In this document: one piece after another, positions 10,485 to 60,692 of the stretch
How positions within the stretch are numbered: position 1 is the stretch's first letter
Layout: every line of letters starts with the position of its first letter
Assembly (NCBI RefSeq): GCF_003339865.1
Contig: NZ_QPKV01000004.1
Location: 1 to 64,000 of the forward strand
Direction of reading: 5' to 3'
Length of the DNA stretch: 64,000 nucleotides
From: Pedobacter chinensis
GTDB lineage: Bacteria > Bacteroidota > Bacteroidia > Sphingobacteriales > Sphingobacteriaceae
Program-made: the position numbers and the translations under genes
Notes under the pieces: generated by a model
The model's database searches: none
Told to the model about the DNA's origin: nothing
The model's input: the letters and a program-made list of their open reading frames with translations, nothing else

Positions 10485-10712
10485 ACAATTGGCAATTTTC
10501 AGTTAACAACACTAAAAATTGCCAATTTTTTTTGCCTGAAATTTCCTGCAAACTGAACACTGCCAACTGAATACTGCCAACTGAATACTGCCAACTGAAT
10601 ACTGCCAACTGAATACTGTCAACTGAATACTGTCAACTGAATACTGTCAACTGAATACTGTCAACTGAATACTGCCAACTGAATACTGCCAACTGAATAC
10701 TGTTAACTGAGC
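10485..10712. repeat. Heptad-phased repeat filling the ribBA/tamB-like 3' gap
   Basis: From 10485 the sequence can be cut into 7-mers in one register. The left part is the reverse orientation (ACAATTG, GCAATTT). The right part, from about 10548, is a tandem of AACTGAA-TACTGCC units, 11-12 copies of the 14-mer with C-to-T variants. The non-coding gap between the two stop codons is 238 nt, exactly 34 heptads. See the findings for related loci. Confidence 0.9.
10487..10533 (+). terminator. Intrinsic terminator of ribBA
   Basis: Arms AATTGGCAATTTT (10487-10499) and the complement at 10515-10527, with a 15-nt loop and a T run to 10533. It lies 12 bp after the ribBA stop. The arms are themselves heptad-repeat units in opposite orientation. 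Confidence 0.85.
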
Positions 10713-16466: not shown

Positions 16467-16508
16467 TTGTCCGTTATCATTAACTGAAAACGGCTAACTG
16501 AAAACTGA
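16467..16508. repeat. Short heptad-phased repeat before the 65-aa protein gene
   Basis: Six 7-mers in register, including two copies of TAACTGA and one AAACTGA, ending 4 bp before the next ATG. CCGTT at 16471 and AACGG at 16489 could pair. It uses a heptamer related to the ribBA locus. Confidence 0.6.
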
Positions 16509-16512
16509 ATTT

Positions 16513-25124: not shown

Positions 25125-25134
25125 AAATCTCAAA

Positions 25135-26048
25135 CTGTCGAAGTCACGCGCTGCTCGTGGCCTTTAAGACTTCGCTAGTTTCCTGACTCAAGAAGTTTAG
25201 AGCGCAACGTGATAGTGGGAAATTTCGTTAGTCTGTACCTTTAAAAAACTGTCGAAGTCACGCGCTGCTCCTGGCCTTTAAGACTTCGCAAGTTTCCTGA
25301 CTCAAGAAGTTTAGAGCGCAACGTGATAGTGGGAAATTTCGTCAGTCTGTACCTTTAAAAAACTGTCGAAGTCACGCGCTGCTCCTGGCCTTTAAGACTT
25401 CGCAAGTTTCCTGACTTACGAAGTTTAGAGAGCAATGTGATAGTGGGAAACTTCGTCAGCCTGTTACCTTTAAAAACTGTCGAAGTCATGCGCTGCTCGT
25501 GGCCTTTAAGACTTCGCAAGTTTCCTGACTCACGAAGTTTAGAGCGCAATGTGATGGTGGGAAACTTCGTCAGCCTGTTACCTTTAAAAAACTGTCGAAG
25601 TCATGCGCTGCTCCTGGCCTTTAAGACTTCGCAAGTTTCCTGACTCACGAAGTTTAGAGAGCAATGTGATGGTGGGAAACTTCGTCAGTCTGTACCTTTA
25701 AAAAACTGTCGAAGTCATGCGCTGCTCCTGGCCTTTAAGACTTCGCTAGTTTCCTGACTCACGAAGTTTAGAGCGCAATGTGATGGCGGGAAACTTCGTC
25801 AGCCTGTTACCTTTAAAAAACTGTCGAAGTCATACGCTGCTCCTGGCCTTTAAGATTTCGCAAGTTTCCTGACTCAAGAAGTTTAGAGCGCAACGTGATG
25901 GTGGGAAACTTCGTCAGTCTGTTATTTCAAAAAACTGTCGAAGTCATGCGCTGCTCCTGGCCTTTAAGACTTCGCAAGTTTCCTGACTCACGAAGTTTAG
26001 GGCGCAATGTGATAGTGGGAAACTTCGTCAGTCTGTTATTTCAAATAA
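25135..26048. repeat. Eight tandem ~114-bp repeats with internal dyads
   Basis: Units start at 25135, 25249, 25363, 25477, 25592, 25706, 25821 and 25935 (period 114-115). Each opens with CTGTCGAAGTCA. Inside each, CGAAGTC pairs with GACTTCG about 20 nt on, and CGAAGTTT pairs with AAACTTCG, extended by CTGA/TCAG. Several substitutions fall in the arms, such as CTCAAGAAG against CTCACGAAG and AAATTTCG against AAACTTCG. There are no spacers between units and no credible protein. The last unit ends next to the broken yhcG gene. Confidence 0.93.
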
Positions 26049-28180: not shown

Positions 28181-28321
28181 AGTCCGAAGTCAGGAGACCG
28201 AAGTGGGATGATAAACACCTCAAACAGAAGTTAAATCAATCTTTGCATAGAGATTAGTCTTCTTTAGTTGGTAGTTAATTTGTGCCAAGACTCCGAACTA
28301 CTGACTAAAGACTCCCAACTT
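28181..28321. repeat. Heptad-phased inverted arms between DUF2157 and the antiporter
   Basis: Left arm at 28181-28208 is four 7-mers beginning AGTCCGA and AGTCAGG. The right arm at 28287-28321 is five 7-mers (AAGACTC, CTGACTA) that read AGTTNNG or AGTCTTN when reverse-complemented. The two arms are therefore the same heptamer family in opposite orientation, ending at the antiporter stop codon. Confidence 0.7.
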
Positions 28322-31030: not shown

Positions 31031-32059
31031 CTATGATACTGATTCAAAGTAAGCCAAGGTAGCTTCTTTATCTTTTTGTAGTTGAATGGTTAAGGCCTCC
31101 AAACCTGTAAATTTAACATCGTGACGTAAAAATTTAAGGAAATTCATTTTAATGTCCTGCCCATAAATCTCCTCGTTAAAATCAAAAATATTAACTTCAA
31201 TGTTTCTGGTCATTCCATTTATGGTTGGTCGCTGACCGATATAAGCCATGCCTTTAAAAGCCCGGAGCTGGAAGTCGGAAGCCGGAAGTTTTGAGGTAAA
31301 GCTGATAATACTGTCTGAAATTTTATCATCGGTCATCGGACTTATGACTTCTGACTTAAAATTCATTTCTACTGTAACCGCATAAATACCGTCACCTGGA
31401 ATTAGTTTGTATGTTTCCTCTACAAAAATATTTGCTGTCGGAAAACCAATGGTTCTTCCAATTTTATCGCCTTTAATTACTCTTCCAAAAATTGAAAATG
31501 GATAACCAAGGTAATCGGCTGCCAAACTCACGTCACCTGCTAAAAGCGCCTGACGGATTTTGGTAGAGCTAACGGCTACATCGTGAATATCCTGTTCTGC
31601 AATTTCCTCCACAGTAAAGCCGAAATGTAAGCCCGCAGCTTTTAAATCTGCTAAATTTCCTGAACGATCTTTTCCAAAACGGTGGTCGTAACCAATAATA
31701 ATGTGTTTGGTTCCAATATTATCTACCAAAGTATTTTTGATATAATCCTCCGGACTTTGATTGGAAAAATCTCTGGTAAAGGGTGTAATGATTAAATGAT
31801 CAACACCTAAACGCTTCAATATTTCGGCTTTTTCATTAATGGTATTGATCATTTTTAACTCCTGGTTTTCCGGGTCAATAATCATCCGCGGGTGCGGGAA
31901 GAAAGTTAAAATCACACTTTCGCCATGAGCTGTTTTAGCCTTTTCTACCAATTGTTTGATTATTTTCTGGTGTCCGAAATGTACACCATCAAATGTACCA
32001 ATCGTTACAATTGCGTTATTTAATTTTTTAAAATCAGAAAGATTATGATATATTTTCAA
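31031..32059 (-). CDS. ribF: Bifunctional riboflavin kinase / FAD synthetase with heptad insert
   Basis: 342 residues. FAD synthetase domain 1-~165 with GTFDGVHFGHQKI and GYDHRFGKDRSG. Riboflavin kinase domain ~180-340 with GRTIGFPTANI and AYIGQRPTING. Makes FMN and FAD. In the kinase domain the usual short turn between the Y-A-V-T-V-E strand and the G-x-A-x-I-G-x-R-P-T strand is replaced by ~34 extra residues (about 232-265, rich in S and D), encoded by heptad repeats at 31267-31364. Last gene of the ftsX-to-ribF run, 12 bp after yitT. Confidence 0.93.
   Translation of the reverse strand: MKIYHNLSDFKKLNNAIVTIGTFDGVHFGHQKIIKQLVEKAKTAHGESVILTFFPHPRMIIDPENQELKMINTINEKAEILKRLGVDHLIITPFTRDFSNQSPEDYIKNTLVDNIGTKHIIIGYDHRFGKDRSGNLADLKAAGLHFGFTVEEIAEQDIHDVAVSSTKIRQALLAGDVSLAADYLGYPFSIFGRVIKGDKIGRTIGFPTANIFVEETYKLIPGDGIYAVTVEMNFKSEVISPMTDDKISDSIISFTSKLPASDFQLRAFKGMAYIGQRPTINGMTRNIEVNIFDFNEEIYGQDIKMNFLKFLRHDVKFTGLEALTIQLQKDKEATLAYFESVS
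31267..31364. repeat. Heptad-phased repeat inside ribF
   Basis: Fourteen consecutive 7-mers in one register. The left arm is GCTGGAA, GTCGGAA, GCCGGAA. The right arm is CGGACTT, ATGACTT, CTGACTT. The right arm reverse-complemented gives AAGTCAG and AAGTCAT, the same family as AAGTCGG and AAGCCGG on the left, so this is an inverted pair with a ~35-nt centre. Confidence 0.85.
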
Positions 32060-37002: not shown

Positions 37003-39831
37003 ATGGATTACCAATTCAAAGAAATAGAAAAAAAGTGGCAGAAGTTTTGGGCCGATAATCAAACATTTAAAGCCGAGCCTAATTCTGAAAAACCAAAATA
37101 TTATGTGTTGGATATGTTTCCTTATCCATCAGGAGCAGGTTTACATGTTGGTCATCCACTGGGTTACATTGCATCAGATATTTTTTCACGATATAAACGC
37201 CTTAAAGGCTTTAACGTTTTGCATCCAATGGGTTACGATTCATTCGGATTGCCAGCAGAACAATATGCCATACAAACAGGTCAGCATCCGGCAATTACCA
37301 CGGAGGCAAATATTGCGACTTATCGTCGTCAGTTAGATCAAATTGGTTTTTCATTCGATTGGAGCCGCGAAGTTCGTACCAGTGAATCATCTTACTATAA
37401 ATGGACACAATGGATTTTTATGCAGTTGTTCAATTCTTGGTATAACATTGAAAACGATAGGGCGGAAGATATTACCACTCTGATTGAAAAATTCAACGCA
37501 TCAGGCACAGCAGATGTAAAAGCAGTTTGCGATGATGATGTGAAATCATTTTTGCCAAGCGACTGGGCAACCTTTAGTGATGAAGAAAGGCAAGAGGAGT
37601 TATTGAAATATCGATTAACTTATCTTAAAGAAAGTACTGTGAACTGGTGCCCTGCACTGGGAACGGTTTTGGCAAATGATGAAGTAAAAGATGGTTTCTC
37701 TGAGCGTGGCGGACATCCGGTTGAACAAAAGAAAATGATGCAATGGAGCATGCGGATTACCGCTTATGCTGATCGCCTTTTGCAGGGGCTGGATACCATC
37801 GACTGGCCTGAACCAATTAAGGAAATGCAGCGAAACTGGATTGGTAAAAGTGTTGGTGCATCAGTGAAGTTTGCAGTTGACAATTCACAGTTGGCAGTTG
37901 AAGAAACTGAAAACTCAAACCTGAAAACTGAAAAATATATAGAAGTATTTACCACCCGGGTAGATACCATTTTTGGGGTTTCTTATTTAGTATTGGCACC
38001 AGAGCATGAATGGGTAGCTGAATTGACCACACCAGCGCAAAAGCAAGATGTTGAAAATTATATTGCTCAAACTAAAAAGAAATCTGAATTGGATCGTATG
38101 GCAGATACCAAAACAGTTTCGGGTGCATTTACAGGAACTTATGTGATTAATCCGGTTAGTGGCGAACGCGTGCAATTATGGATTGCTGATTACGTACTTG
38201 CTGGTTACGGAACGGGTGCGGTTATGGGCGTTCCAAGTGGTGACCAACGCGATTGGTTATTTGCTACACATTTCAATTTGCCAATCATCCAGATTTTGGA
38301 TGCACAACAAAATATCGATGAACAGGCCGATCCAACCAAAGAAGGAAAATATATAAATTCTGGTTTTATCAATGGATTGACCTATAAAGAAGCAGTTGAT
38401 TTTTTAAATAACTGGCTTGAAGAAAAAGGCGTTGGAAAAGCTAAAGTTAATTTCCGTCAGCGCGATGCGATTTTTGGCCGCCAGCGTTATTGGGGTGAAC
38501 CTATTCCGGTTTATTTCAAAGATGGCTTACCTTATTTATTGAAAGAAGAAGAACTGCCGTTAATTCTTCCTGAAATTGACAAATATCTTCCTACTGAAAC
38601 CGGCGAGCCTCCTTTAGGTCGTGCTGAAGATTGGAAATATGATGGCAAATACGAGTATGAATTAAGCACCATGCCAGGTTGGGCCGGAAGCAGCTGGTAT
38701 TGGTACCGTTATATGGATGCCAACAATAATGCTGACTTCGCATCAAAAGAAGCTATTGATTATTGGAAGGATGTCGATTTGTATATCGGGGGTTCTGAGC
38801 ACGCAACAGGTCACTTATTGTATAGCCGTTTCTGGAACAAATTTTTGAAAGATTTAGGTTATGCCAAAGAAGAGGAACCTTTCAAAAAACTGATTAATCA
38901 AGGGATGATTCAGGGTAGAAGTAATTTTGTTTACCGGATTAATGATGAGCAAGGTAAGCCGACAAATACCTATGTTTCAGCTGGATTAAGGAAAGAATAC
39001 AATACTACTGCATTACATGTTGATGTTAACATTGTTGAGAACGACACTTTAGATTTAAATAAATTTAAAGCCTGGCGGGAAGAATATGCCCATGCAGAAT
39101 TTATTCTTGAAGGTGGAAAATACGTCTGCGGTGTTGAAGTGGAAAAAATGTCGAAATCGAAATTCAACGTGGTTAATCCCGATGATTTGATTGAACGTTA
39201 CGGTGCAGACACTTTGCGGATGTACGAGATGTTTTTGGGGCCGTTAGAGCAAAGCAAACCCTGGAATACAAACGGTATTGAAGGCGTATTTAAATTCTTA
39301 CGTAAGTTCTGGAGGTTATTCCACAATGAGGCTTGGGAATTTACTGTTTCAGATGCAGAACCAACTAAAGCAGAATTGAAAGCCCTGCATAAAATCATCA
39401 AAAAAGTTCAGGATGATATTGAGCGTTTCTCTTTCAATACTTCAGTTTCGAGTTTCATGATTGCTGTTAATGAGTTAACGGATTTGAAATGTAACAAGCG
39501 AAGTATTTTGCAGGATATGGTGGTTATTTTATCGCCTTATGCACCACACATCTGCGAAGAACTTTGGGTTCAGTTGGGCAATGAGGCTGGTAGCTTATCT
39601 TACGCTGCTTTCCCAACTTTTAATCCTGAGCATTTAGTTGAGGATGAGTTTGCTTATCCGGTTTCAATCAACGGTAAAATGAAGATGAACTTAAACCTGA
39701 GTTTAACTTTAGCACAACCTGAAGTGGAAACCATTTTATTGGCGAATGAACAATTCCAGAAATTTTTAGATGATAAAGCACCTAAGAAAATCATTTTCGT
39801 AAAAGGAAAGATTATTAATGTGGTTGTTTAA
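37003..39831 (+). CDS. leuS: Leucyl-tRNA synthetase with heptad insert
   Basis: 942 residues. Class I motif HVGHPLGY near residue 47 and KMSKS in VEKMSKSKFNVVNPDD near residue 710. The large CP1 editing domain lies between. At the CP1 entrance, 21 residues (291-311, A-V-D-N-S-Q-L ... N-L-K-T-E-K) are encoded by nine in-register heptads at 37873-37935. They are followed directly by the editing motif, which reads TTRVDT rather than the usual TTRPDT. All other signature motifs are present, so the enzyme is presumably functional. Ends 2 bp before another heptad locus. Confidence 0.95.
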   Translation: MDYQFKEIEKKWQKFWADNQTFKAEPNSEKPKYYVLDMFPYPSGAGLHVGHPLGYIASDIFSRYKRLKGFNVLHPMGYDSFGLPAEQYAIQTGQHPAITTEANIATYRRQLDQIGFSFDWSREVRTSESSYYKWTQWIFMQLFNSWYNIENDRAEDITTLIEKFNASGTADVKAVCDDDVKSFLPSDWATFSDEERQEELLKYRLTYLKESTVNWCPALGTVLANDEVKDGFSERGGHPVEQKKMMQWSMRITAYADRLLQGLDTIDWPEPIKEMQRNWIGKSVGASVKFAVDNSQLAVEETENSNLKTEKYIEVFTTRVDTIFGVSYLVLAPEHEWVAELTTPAQKQDVENYIAQTKKKSELDRMADTKTVSGAFTGTYVINPVSGERVQLWIADYVLAGYGTGAVMGVPSGDQRDWLFATHFNLPIIQILDAQQNIDEQADPTKEGKYINSGFINGLTYKEAVDFLNNWLEEKGVGKAKVNFRQRDAIFGRQRYWGEPIPVYFKDGLPYLLKEEELPLILPEIDKYLPTETGEPPLGRAEDWKYDGKYEYELSTMPGWAGSSWYWYRYMDANNNADFASKEAIDYWKDVDLYIGGSEHATGHLLYSRFWNKFLKDLGYAKEEEPFKKLINQGMIQGRSNFVYRINDEQGKPTNTYVSAGLRKEYNTTALHVDVNIVENDTLDLNKFKAWREEYAHAEFILEGGKYVCGVEVEKMSKSKFNVVNPDDLIERYGADTLRMYEMFLGPLEQSKPWNTNGIEGVFKFLRKFWRLFHNEAWEFTVSDAEPTKAELKALHKIIKKVQDDIERFSFNTSVSSFMIAVNELTDLKCNKRSILQDMVVILSPYAPHICEELWVQLGNEAGSLSYAAFPTFNPEHLVEDEFAYPVSINGKMKMNLNLSLTLAQPEVETILLANEQFQKFLDDKAPKKIIFVKGKIINVVV
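37873..37935. repeat. Heptad-phased repeat inside leuS
   Basis: Nine 7-mers, 63 nt. The first half uses GCAGTTG and ACAGTTG, and the second half TGAAAAC and TCAAACC. TGAAAAC reverse-complemented is GTTTTCA, so the halves are related in opposite orientation. 63 is divisible by 3 and 7, so the frame is kept. Confidence 0.85.
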
Positions 39832-39833
39832 TA

Positions 39834-40042
39834 AAGGTAGAAGGCGGAAGGTTTAAGGTAAAAGGTTTTTCCGTTCTTTTGCTTAATAAATAACGAAGAG
39901 CCCCGAATTGATTTTTTCAACTCGGGGCTCTTTTTTGTGCATTTGTAATAATATATTGATGGTAATAAAAATCGAATCCCAGATTTTATTTAATGTGTTT
40001 TGGGGCTAGGTTTCCGACCTTAAACCTTCTATCATAAACCTT
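39834..40042. repeat. Heptad arms flanking the leuS terminator
   Basis: Left arm 39834-39868: AAGGTAG, AAGGCGG, AAGGTTT, AAGGTAA, AAGGTTT. Right arm 40008-40042 contains AAACCTT twice and CGACCTT once, the same family reversed. GAAGGTTTAAGGT in the left arm has an exact complement in the right arm. The arms enclose the terminator hairpin and reach from 3 bp after the leuS stop to the stop of the helicase gene. Confidence 0.85.
39898..39936 (+). terminator. Terminator of leuS
   Basis: GAGCCCCGA and TCGGGGCTC arms (extended by AA/TT outside) with a 15-nt loop and six T residues. The A-rich left side lets it also serve the minus strand. Confidence 0.92.
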
Positions 40043-40043
40043 C

Positions 40044-41339
40044 TTAAGCTTTCGCTTTTTTTCTGTTTCCGCCAAATCGCCTGTTGTTACTGGCATTGCG
40101 TGGTTTTCCACTCATATTACCATCGCCGTTTTTCTTGCCACCACCTTTCGAAGGCGTTTGAGGCTTACGTTTAACCTGGTTTTTGGCCAGCATGCTTTCC
40201 CAGCTTAACGGATAAGGATGGTTATCAACAATAGGCAAAGTGATTTTAATTAACTTTTGGATATCCAATAAGTATTCATTTTCTTCTGCATCGCAGAATG
40301 AAATGGCTATACCATTTGCTCCTGCACGTCCTGTACGACCGATCCTGTGAACGTAAGATTCAGGAATGTTTGGTAATTCGTAGTTGAAAACATGTGATAA
40401 CTGATCAATATCAATACCACGGGCGGCAATATCAGTTGCCACTAAAACACGGATTTTTCTATCTTTAAAATCAGTTAATGCTCTTTGTCTGGCATTTTGC
40501 GATTTATTTCCATGAATGGCTGCGGCTTTAATTCCGGCATGAGCTAAATCTTTAACAATCCGGTCTGCACCATGCTTGGTACGCGTAAAAACCAGGGCCG
40601 TTTCAATTGCTTTATCTTCCAGTAAGTGAATTAATAACTTTTTTTTATCTGGTTTATCAACAAAATAAATAGATTGATTAATGGTTTCGGCAGTTGAAGA
40701 AACCGGTGTAACCTCAACCTTAGTTGGGCTGGATAAAATGGTATTGGCCAACTTCTGGATCTCATCGGGCATCGTTGCCGAGAAAAATAAAGTCTGGCGT
40801 TTTGCAGGTAATTTAGCCACCACTCTTTTCACATCGTGAATAAAACCCATGTCTAACATACGGTCGGCTTCATCCAAAACAAAAAGTTCTATCGTGTTCA
40901 AGCTGATAAAACCCTGGTTCATCAAATCTAATAAACGGCCAGGTGTAGCAACCAGAATATCGATGCCTTTTCTCAAAGCCTCTACTTGTGAGTGCTGATT
41001 TACACCACCAAAAATCACGAGATGACGTAAGTTTAAATGGCGGCCATAAGCTTTAAAACTTTCTTCAATTTGAATGGCAAGTTCGCGCGTTGGCGTTAAA
41101 ACCAAAGCCTTAATGTTTTTTGTTACCTTAGTGTTAAGGTGTTTTTCGTGCAATAATTGCAACATTGGAATGGCAAAAGCAGCCGTTTTTCCGGTACCGG
41201 TTTGTGCGCAACCTAATAAATCTTTTCCTTTTAATATTGTTGGGATGGATTGCTCCTGTATTGGGGTAGGTTGTGTATAACCTTCAGTCTCAAGGGCCTT
41301 CAAAATTGGCTCAATGAGGTTTAATTCTTTGAATAACAT
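40044..41339 (-). CDS. DEAD-box ATP-dependent RNA helicase (RhlE-like)
   Basis: About 431 residues from [17 protein letters not shown]; an ATG 14 codons upstream is less likely. Q motif [10 protein letters not shown], motif [21 protein letters not shown], motif II DEAD, SAT, and [10 protein letters not shown] in the C-terminal RecA-like lobe. The last ~50 residues are basic with G/N/R-rich repeats ([19 protein letters not shown]), typical of cold-shock or ribosome-assembly helicases of the RhlE group. It probably remodels mRNA or pre-rRNA. Its stop codon lies next to heptad repeats. Confidence 0.92.
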
Positions 41340-46153: not shown

Positions 46154-46202
46154 TACTAAAGACTAAAGACTAAAGACTAAAGACTAAAGACTAAAGACTA
46201 AT
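46154..46202. repeat. Tandem GACTAAA heptad array overlapping a stop codon
   Basis: Seven consecutive 7-mers (TACTAAA, then GACTAAA copies, last GACTAAT). The last copy contains the CTA that is the stop codon of the minus-strand gene. No inverted partner arm seen nearby. Confidence 0.9.
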
Positions 46203-60499: not shown

Positions 60500-60692
60500 A
60501 CTCAAAGGGGTGCTTTTTTGATTTTGCAATTTCTGTTTTGCAATCAATAGGCTGAGATTATACCCATTTTAAGGTAGAAGGTTAAAAGGCAGAAGGTAGA
60601 AGGTTATGCATATTGCGAGCCTAAACCTCTAAACGCTAAACCTTAAACTTTAAATGCACCTGATTCGGATAATGCCGACGTAGGGAAGAGGT
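60500..60692 (+). promoter_or_regulatory. TPP (THI-box) riboswitch with heptad insert
   Basis: All aptamer blocks are present: AGGGGTGC (60507-60513 region), GGCTGAGATTATACCC (60551-60565), ACCTGATTCGGATAATGCC and GACGTAGGGAAG (to 60689). The two halves are separated by a junction of about 90 nt that is normally short. It contains twelve 7-mers. Downstream TGCTGTTTC/GAAAGCA can form a hairpin ahead of the U-rich stretch. It should shut down the transporter gene when thiamine pyrophosphate is plentiful. Confidence 0.93.
60571..60654. repeat. Heptad-phased repeat inside the riboswitch
   Basis: 12 heptads, 84 nt. Left AAGGTAG, AAGGTTA, GAAGGTA, and right CTCTAAA, CGCTAAA, CCTTAAA, which are complementary in family (AAGGTTT reversed). 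The same heptamer as at the leuS terminator. Confidence 0.85.

Follow-up and report, generated by a model that had tools for sequence, protein, structure and literature searches.

Heptad segment in leuS

The window analysed here is the whole of a 64,000-nucleotide (nt) stretch of Pedobacter chinensis DNA (contig NZ_QPKV01000004.1, positions 1 to 64,000), and its focal feature is a run of seven-nucleotide units (heptads) lying in frame in leuS, the gene for leucyl-tRNA synthetase (LeuRS). Below, G000 denotes the genome under study, and the other G-numbers and the L-numbers denote genomes and loci of relatives. The main features at the locus, supported in part by Tandem Repeats Finder (TRF), are:

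37003..39831, plus strand: leuS, leucyl-tRNA synthetase, the host gene (single open frame, 942 residues; Pfam tRNA-synt_1_2 editing domain and others)
37873..37901, plus strand: left arm of GT-type heptads, CAGTTGN (TRF 37874-37901, lag profile)
37902..37935, plus strand: right arm of AC-type heptads, AAACTGA (TRF 37904-37934, sequence)

Pfam and alignment to solved LeuRS placed catalytic, editing and anticodon-binding domains in the protein. Read in sevens, positions 37873-37935 are GCAGTTG ACAATTC ACAGTTG GCAGTTG AAGAAAC TGAAAAC TCAAACC TGAAAAC TGAAAAA. Identity was 35/56 (0.62) at lag 7 and 26/49 (0.53) at lag 14, with 0.12-0.37 at lags 5-6 and 8-13, and shuffling the codon order of the 66-nt loop gave p=0.001, the lowest value possible with 999 shuffles; the 7-nt periodicity noted in an initial annotation of this DNA is therefore real. 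That annotation had described nine direct heptads running in one direction. TRF returned instead two 7-nt arrays, at 37874-37901 (4.0 copies, 71%) and 37904-37934 (4.4 copies, 83%), and because the left part carries AGTT (AACT on the opposite strand) and the right part AACT, the two arms are opposed. In the right arm, TCA stands in the unit where TGA would fall in frame. The single open frame of 942 residues agrees with the claim that the element is in frame and tolerated. Its position was given as the entrance of the editing domain, directly before the editing motif; the Pfam editing-domain match starts at residue 277, which puts the loop inside the first part of that domain, not before it. 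In the solved LeuRS 7nua_A, the corresponding stretch aligned as a short variable segment flanked by conserved blocks. An AlphaFold model of LeuRS was poor (mean predicted local distance difference test score, pLDDT, 54; 36 close sequences) and was relied on weakly; it placed residues 298-309, with pLDDT below 50, between strands 282-292 and 312-317.

The closest other match to the leuS array in the genome covered 62 nt at 77% identity. The leuS array escaped a search with a strict 35-nt window at 70-85% identity, owing to the degeneracy of its units. An intergenic two-arm copy of the leuS unit type was observed at L363 (G000:C22:51767-51828), immediately following a stop codon, with a converging frame beyond it; hairpins of this kind could act as terminators.

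The leuS loop in relatives

A strong LeuRS match was present in 96 of the 99 genus genomes searched, and the other 3 gave weak matches only. Ninety genus leuS loci were taken, with G021, G028 and a longer G048 added later, and leuS site 1, the loop described above, was first read in 90 of the 99 genomes. The spacing between KF and IEVF was 24 nt in the commonest genus form (QVEGNDKQ and similar, 928 residues) and 66 nt in the window, so the gain is 14 residues and not the 21 first proposed; plain and heptad loops among the genus loci spanned 24-66 nt. The locus L008 (935 residues; P. ghigonis locus L295) equals the window form L001 (942 residues) minus exactly 21 nt, and L009 (941 residues) and L012 (934 residues) differ by 7 residues in another unit type, GACTCNG. 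As the initial annotation had anticipated, the segment is thus absent from many congeners and varies in steps of 7 residues, and the relatives do not all carry one ordinary conserved segment. The motif TTRVDT, singled out as a peculiarity, proved ordinary for the clade, being present in 88 of the 90 genus loci (one of the other two has TTRADT, and one, truncated, lacks the motif) and in 74 of 80 leuS loci from a scan of named genomes, the closest being from Pedobacter species (TTRADT in the other 6). A third variable region was observed at LeuRS residues ~640-710, with long unrelated inserts in L028, L051, L053-L061 and L066-L068; no heptads were seen by eye in this region of these loci.

The same architecture in other genes and between genes

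The same opposed-arm architecture was found in frame in five G000 genes, namely leuS, ribF (31235-31378), ispG (L106), metH (L181) and aroA (L366), all with open frames. The leuS heptads are thus not special, since four more genes share their architecture. The names ribF, ispG, metH, aroA and, below, hisF are what we take these genes to be from reading the proteins rather than from a family search.

The G000 sample comprised 1.187 Mb, that is, the window and further stretches, those at contig starts not being a random sample. In it, RACY cores at period 7 gave overlapping matches of three units (67) and four units (34). These make up 32 separate arrays, 25 of which lie outside long frames. Other periods gave at most 15 three-unit and 7 four-unit matches, the exception being period 9 with 46 three-unit and 0 four-unit matches. 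The whole genome contained 187 four-unit pattern matches, against 9 for the reversed control. A scan inside genes of the named loci, which are rich in leuS and ribF, returned 43 matches at period 7 and at most 13 elsewhere.

Further features in the window, without strand unless stated, are:

31031..32059, minus strand: ribF-like gene, second host in the window (open frame, translation; named from reading the protein)
31235..31378, minus strand: opposed heptads within a loop of ribF (TRF 31258-31288 and 31339-31358)
28181..28320: GT-type heptads followed by opposed AC-type heptads, between genes
60571..60654: intergenic opposed pair, AAGGTAG then TAAACCT units (TRF 60571-60604 and 60622-60654; sequence)
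39835..39866: GT-type heptads (AAGGTNN) just 3' of the leuS stop codon (by eye; under the TRF threshold)
40017..40044: AC-type heptads (ACCTTNN) beyond a terminator-like hairpin (by eye; would pair with 39835-39866)
46155..46201: perfect ACTAAAG x 6.7, single direction (TRF)
10546..10710: 14-nt (two-heptad) array CTGCCAACTGAATA x 11.8, single direction (TRF)
16482..16509: AACTGAA x 4, single direction (TRF)

Other repeats were also observed: about eight tandem 114-nt copies (94% alike) between two genes at 25132-26036 of the window, and long perfect runs of (CCCTAAA)n, the plant telomere unit, at L121 8143-8230 (G000 contig 16) and also in G031 and G005. Two relatives' frames are broken, ispG of G009 (L369) just downstream of its heptad array and metH of G027 (L370) far from it, and sequencing error is possible in both.

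Periodicity, polarity and pairing of the arms

Among unique loops of at least 36 nt, codon shuffling gave p<=0.01 for 32/82 in leuS, where about 0.8 would be expected, 28/35 in ribF, 25/26 at metH site B and 23/27 in ispG. Mean lag-7 identity was 0.38, 0.47, 0.57 and 0.49, respectively, with similar values at lag 14 and 0.20-0.34 at other lags. Polarity counts used RACY-like cores that begin with A, G or T and are spaced seven apart; the two metH loops longer than 200 nt were excluded. Left halves contained 121 such cores on the minus strand and 5 on the plus strand, right halves 176 on the plus and 1 on the minus. The aroA loops, looked at after the rule had been set, gave 7/0 and 20/0; these sums cover 7 loops, including one plain loop (L435) that reached p<=0.01 by chance, and 7 of the 30 aroA loci were unmatched by the site pattern. 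Heptad pairs were arranged GT-left/AC-right in 29 cases (16 intergenic, 13 coding) and reversed in 2 (2 intergenic, 0 coding), with two places entered twice in the intergenic count. Since the intergenic pairs obey the rule too, polarity is a property of the element and not of coding.

Each element thus has two arms of 7-nt units, a GT-type left arm with an RGTY core and an AC-type right arm with a RACY core, the unit consensus being RACYNNN (CAGTTGN and AAACTGA in leuS). The four-base core is more conserved and the other three bases are freer: unit-to-unit identity was 0.70-0.76 for the core and 0.37-0.55 for the remaining bases in right arms, and 0.57-0.70 and 0.29-0.56 in left arms, with the caveat that setting the unit phase by RACY biases core identity upward. 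Within the arrays the gene frame is stop-free by construction of the search, and the other two frames hold 27-80 stops per site.

Pairing was better between an element's own arms than between swapped ones in 21 dereplicated leuS loops and in 18 from metH (p 2e-4 for each gene). Apart from one codon, metH unit type B (CAGTTGN/AACTGAA) aligns base for base with type C (GAGTTGN/AACTCCA); at columns 1, 8, 15 and 22 one has the base C where the other has G, and the right arm changes to match. At three predicted metH pairs, changes on both sides preserve pairing in 1, 4 and 4 of 12 sequences, and one of the three pairs is broken in 3 other sequences. A hairpin as a general rule was not retained, being backed in metH and leuS only, with modest folding of the leuS segment alone.

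Turnover between sister species

A metH tree was built from sequence outside site B. Site B could be read in 26 of 30 loci, and 22 of these belong to the four unit types. Placing the four types on these 22 rows took 9 changes; 300 shuffles of the labels took 8-13 (mean 11.0), and 27 of them did as well as the observed labels. Sister rows differ in unit type in two cases (L216/L217 and L206/L219), and L202 and L216 have unlike arrays between flanks that are 96% alike. Pairs of the same type showed no added flank identity (left p 0.67, right p 0.61), and unit type therefore changes while the flanking sequence stays in place, as tested in metH only. For the same reason, hitchhiking flanks, as in ordinary allelic recombination, were rejected as the source of the metH type changes.

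In aroA, six genomes have clear arrays and G010 a degenerate one (p=0.025), and their close sisters have the plain loop; on a flank tree of 19 rows, array presence took 5 changes, or 6 counting G010. Among pairs of similar arrays in leuS, ribF, metH and ispG that differ in length, the difference was a multiple of 21 nt in 34 of 66 and exactly 21 nt in 32. These 66 pairs are not independent, and about 1/7 would be expected from random in-frame differences.

Distribution and candidate agents

Across 40 genus genomes, 23 contained 16-291 four-unit matches and 17 contained 0-4; order-wide, 51 of 61 genomes had at least one. On a LeuRS tree with 35 Pedobacter rows (6 LeuRS rows were lost at block cutting), one clade of 10 had 0-2 matches and another of 25 had at least 10 except G022 (4), so that two changes suffice for heptad abundance.

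Genes matching Y1_Tnp were present in 22/23 heptad-rich and 3/17 heptad-poor genus genomes, and over 92 genomes the two were associated (55, 8, 5, 24; Fisher 8e-11, Spearman 0.70). Within the genus this tie amounts to 2 independent pairs and is not independent of kinship. Around 20 Y1_Tnp loci, in 15 of which a crude motif recognised the frame of a REP-associated tyrosine transposase (RAYT; REP, repetitive extragenic palindromic), we found 1 array in 64.9 kb, at most the background. G111 (157 matches) and G119 (244 matches) gave no Y1_Tnp match, and G114 has 12 Y1_Tnp matches and zero heptad matches. A Y1_Tnp gene was also observed a few kb from metH in G000, G001, G004, G007 and G031 (L403, L404, L415; G000:C15:760988).

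Reverse transcriptase genes occur in 23 of the 40 genomes, and RVT_1 does not track heptad abundance; reverse transcriptase was rejected as the generator, given that PF00078 has no match in G000 despite its 187 four-unit matches. DUF559 was likewise rejected as the heptad agent, since G010 has 291 matches and no DUF559 match.

DUF559 insertions at the same loops

An in-frame DUF559 nuclease domain interrupts leuS site 1 in 5 of 99 genomes (L052, L062, L066, L067 and L068) and site 2, at residue ~547, in 3 others (L064, L065 and L186). Pfam scans of five DUF559-bearing LeuRS detected PF04480 in every one (E 4e-31 to 2e-34) and no splicing domain. The DUF559 inserts in LeuRS and MetH have palindromic ends, which at leuS site 1 read CCTCACCCC...CCCTCTCC, and the site-1 loop of L025, PLSRGEAS with CCGGGGTGAGGCC, looks from its sequence like the remnant of a lost DUF559 element. 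The metH loci with DUF559 (L181, L183) carry the domain at site B in G003, where most of the relatives read have heptads, and at site A in G000. Relatives have heptads at leuS sites 1 and 2 and at metH site B, and none at metH site A. Among 137 unique sequences of leuS site 2, heptads occur in L341, L344, L349 and L359 (Mucilaginibacter), those of L341 and L344 being recognised by eye only, and short in-frame palindromes without a nuclease occur in L322, L329, L333 and L345, which are possibly non-autonomous forms. In all 11 inspected matches of about 400 residues (L182, at G000:C16:698500-702500, and L160, L164, L166, L168-L171, L173, L174 and L177), a PPLGGGGGL-type linker connects DUF559 in frame with the beginning of a HisF-like protein. 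Our literature search found no paper on in-frame DUF559 insertions at these loops.

Discussion

We are confident that the leuS segment belongs to a dispersed family of inverted heptads in a Pedobacter/Mucilaginibacter lineage. Most copies are intergenic, and some are translated, in length-tolerant loops of housekeeping enzymes; the leuS copy probably has no role in LeuRS function. A coding copy would persist only if it is open in the gene frame and changes length by whole codons, a requirement that for heptads would favour 21-nt steps. The arrays may be rewritten during replication by unit slippage, by fold-back template switching between the arms and by conversion among the many arrays of the genome, and as a result both arms would tend toward the same unit type. 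This mechanism of spread is offered tentatively, as possible but short of an even chance. For the explanation as a whole, in which the leuS copy is a tolerated member of a dispersed inverted family that is rewritten during replication, we lean slightly in favour.

Several observations weigh against this reading. Taken by itself, the leuS segment folds modestly (z -1.7 as DNA, -2.1 as RNA), own arms did not pair better than swapped ones in ribF (24 loops; p 0.40) or ispG (19 loops; p 0.28), and a same-strand control in leuS also slightly favoured own arms (-11.27 vs -9.73). One-arm arrays exist too, and 10 heptad pairs lie on the same strand, against the 29 in GT-left/AC-right order. The in-gene scan of the G000 sample gave only 10 matches at period 7 and up to 6 at other periods. 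Both L033 and L034 reach p<=0.01 in leuS, and since L033 comes from G012, a genome without a four-unit match, a few of the passing leuS loops are chance. The reversed control exceeded the pattern in G033 (42 vs 16), G119 (302 vs 244) and G126 (91 vs 50), so other heptad core types exist. Finally, the 17 of 40 congeners with 0-4 matches suggest a specific activity rather than general slippage.

For Pedobacter and Mucilaginibacter, no description of inverted heptads lying in frame came up in a full-text literature search that did not reach most subscription journals. The nearest known class is the heterogeneous heptameric repeats of Xanthomonas, (GGGANTN)n, and Nostoc, GGGGA(C/T)T (PMC4692102). 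In the part of that article available to us, bacterial heptad repeats are described as mostly intergenic and of origin not known; Xanthomonas has about 185 per genome, 7-11% of which overlap a gene, and 70-75 cases per genome of two convergent sites on opposite strands. As far as that text goes, the present arrays resemble them in their tandem 7-nt units (seen here as the lag-7 and period-7 RACY excess), their conserved core positions with others freer, their mostly intergenic location and the convergence of neighbouring arrays (here 29, vs 2 reversed and 10 same-strand). They differ in that the core is RGTY/RACY instead of a quadruplex-capable G-rich GGGA/GGGGA, one genome contains several unit types, five housekeeping genes carry copies in frame within loops, and unit type switches between sister species at the same loop. 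The TAACTGA direct repeats of Beggiatoaceae, cyanobacteria and a few Bacteroidetes are, in the accessible portion of PMC4679880, likewise heptamers, some of them within genes (there mostly near gene ends), with 7-nt steps between related strains; unlike the opposed arms and many units here, they consist of one unit in direct orientation, with one indirect case. Rickettsia palindromic elements are the precedent for in-frame palindromes, since they too lie in frame in unrelated metabolic genes and are translated and tolerated in otherwise intact host proteins; according to the sections of PMC10969869 consulted, they form families of ~150 bp with a conserved peptide, whereas the 7-nt arrays here have only period and core in common.

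REP/RAYT systems comprise high-copy small hairpins. The main rival to rewriting during replication is transposition by a trans-acting enzyme, in which a transposase, with the RAYTs (Y1_Tnp) as leading candidates, would act in trans on a mobile palindromic element, and the element's copies would be hairpin substrates landing in frame as the Rickettsia elements do. The co-occurrence of Y1_Tnp genes with heptads across genomes is REP/RAYT-like, and the wholesale change of unit type between unchanged flanks also speaks for this rival. Unlike in REP/RAYT systems, though, the arms are built of heptads, and no adjacency of arrays to transposase genes was found around the 20 loci; with the genus-level tie reduced to two independent pairs, and with G111, G119 and G114 departing from it in both directions, we consider transposition unlikely. 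Plain local microsatellite slippage from chance repeats, with no exchange between arms or loci, would account for the exact 21-nt differences, and both an excess of heptamers and slippage of the polymerase have been put forward for bacteria in the available part of PMC4692102. We judge it improbable, because it does not yield two opposed arms of fixed polarity, the arm-matched unit types of leuS and metH, or unlike arrays between 96%-alike flanks.

Still less probable is end healing, by which an enzyme would add heptads copied from a short template to both 3' ends of a break, so that joining leaves head-to-head GT-left/AC-right arrays. It predicts exactly the polarity seen, and telomere-like (CCCTAAA)n runs do occur in these genomes; against it stand the lack of a PF00078 match in heptad-rich G000, the failure of RVT_1 to follow abundance and the several unit types within one genome. 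As a speculation that we rate very low, a clade-specific enzyme might use a short template to write RGTY/RACY heptads onto both 3' ends where DNA is broken or displaced. If so, head-to-head heptad arrays would mark healed sites, in-frame traces of earlier events would be preserved in loops of essential genes, and an activity of this kind would also have produced the convergent heptad pairs of Xanthomonas. That the leuS segment is an ordinary variable loop with a coincidental 7-nt pattern is hardly credible: the loop is variable in LeuRS generally, also in the solved enzyme, and 50 of the 82 leuS loops of at least 36 nt miss p<=0.01, but the 32 that pass far exceed the roughly 0.8 expected, and the same architecture recurs at four other genes.

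For the dispersed family itself, comparison of corresponding essential-enzyme loops among many close species allows gains, losses, 21-nt steps and changes of unit type to be scored in the manner of alleles. The reading frame serves as a built-in filter, which makes the origin of bacterial heptad repeats directly testable. Three of the heptad loops also accept in-frame DUF559 domains in relatives and are good sites at which to study how insertions enter essential genes. The arrays represent a route by which essential proteins gain rapidly changing linker segments.

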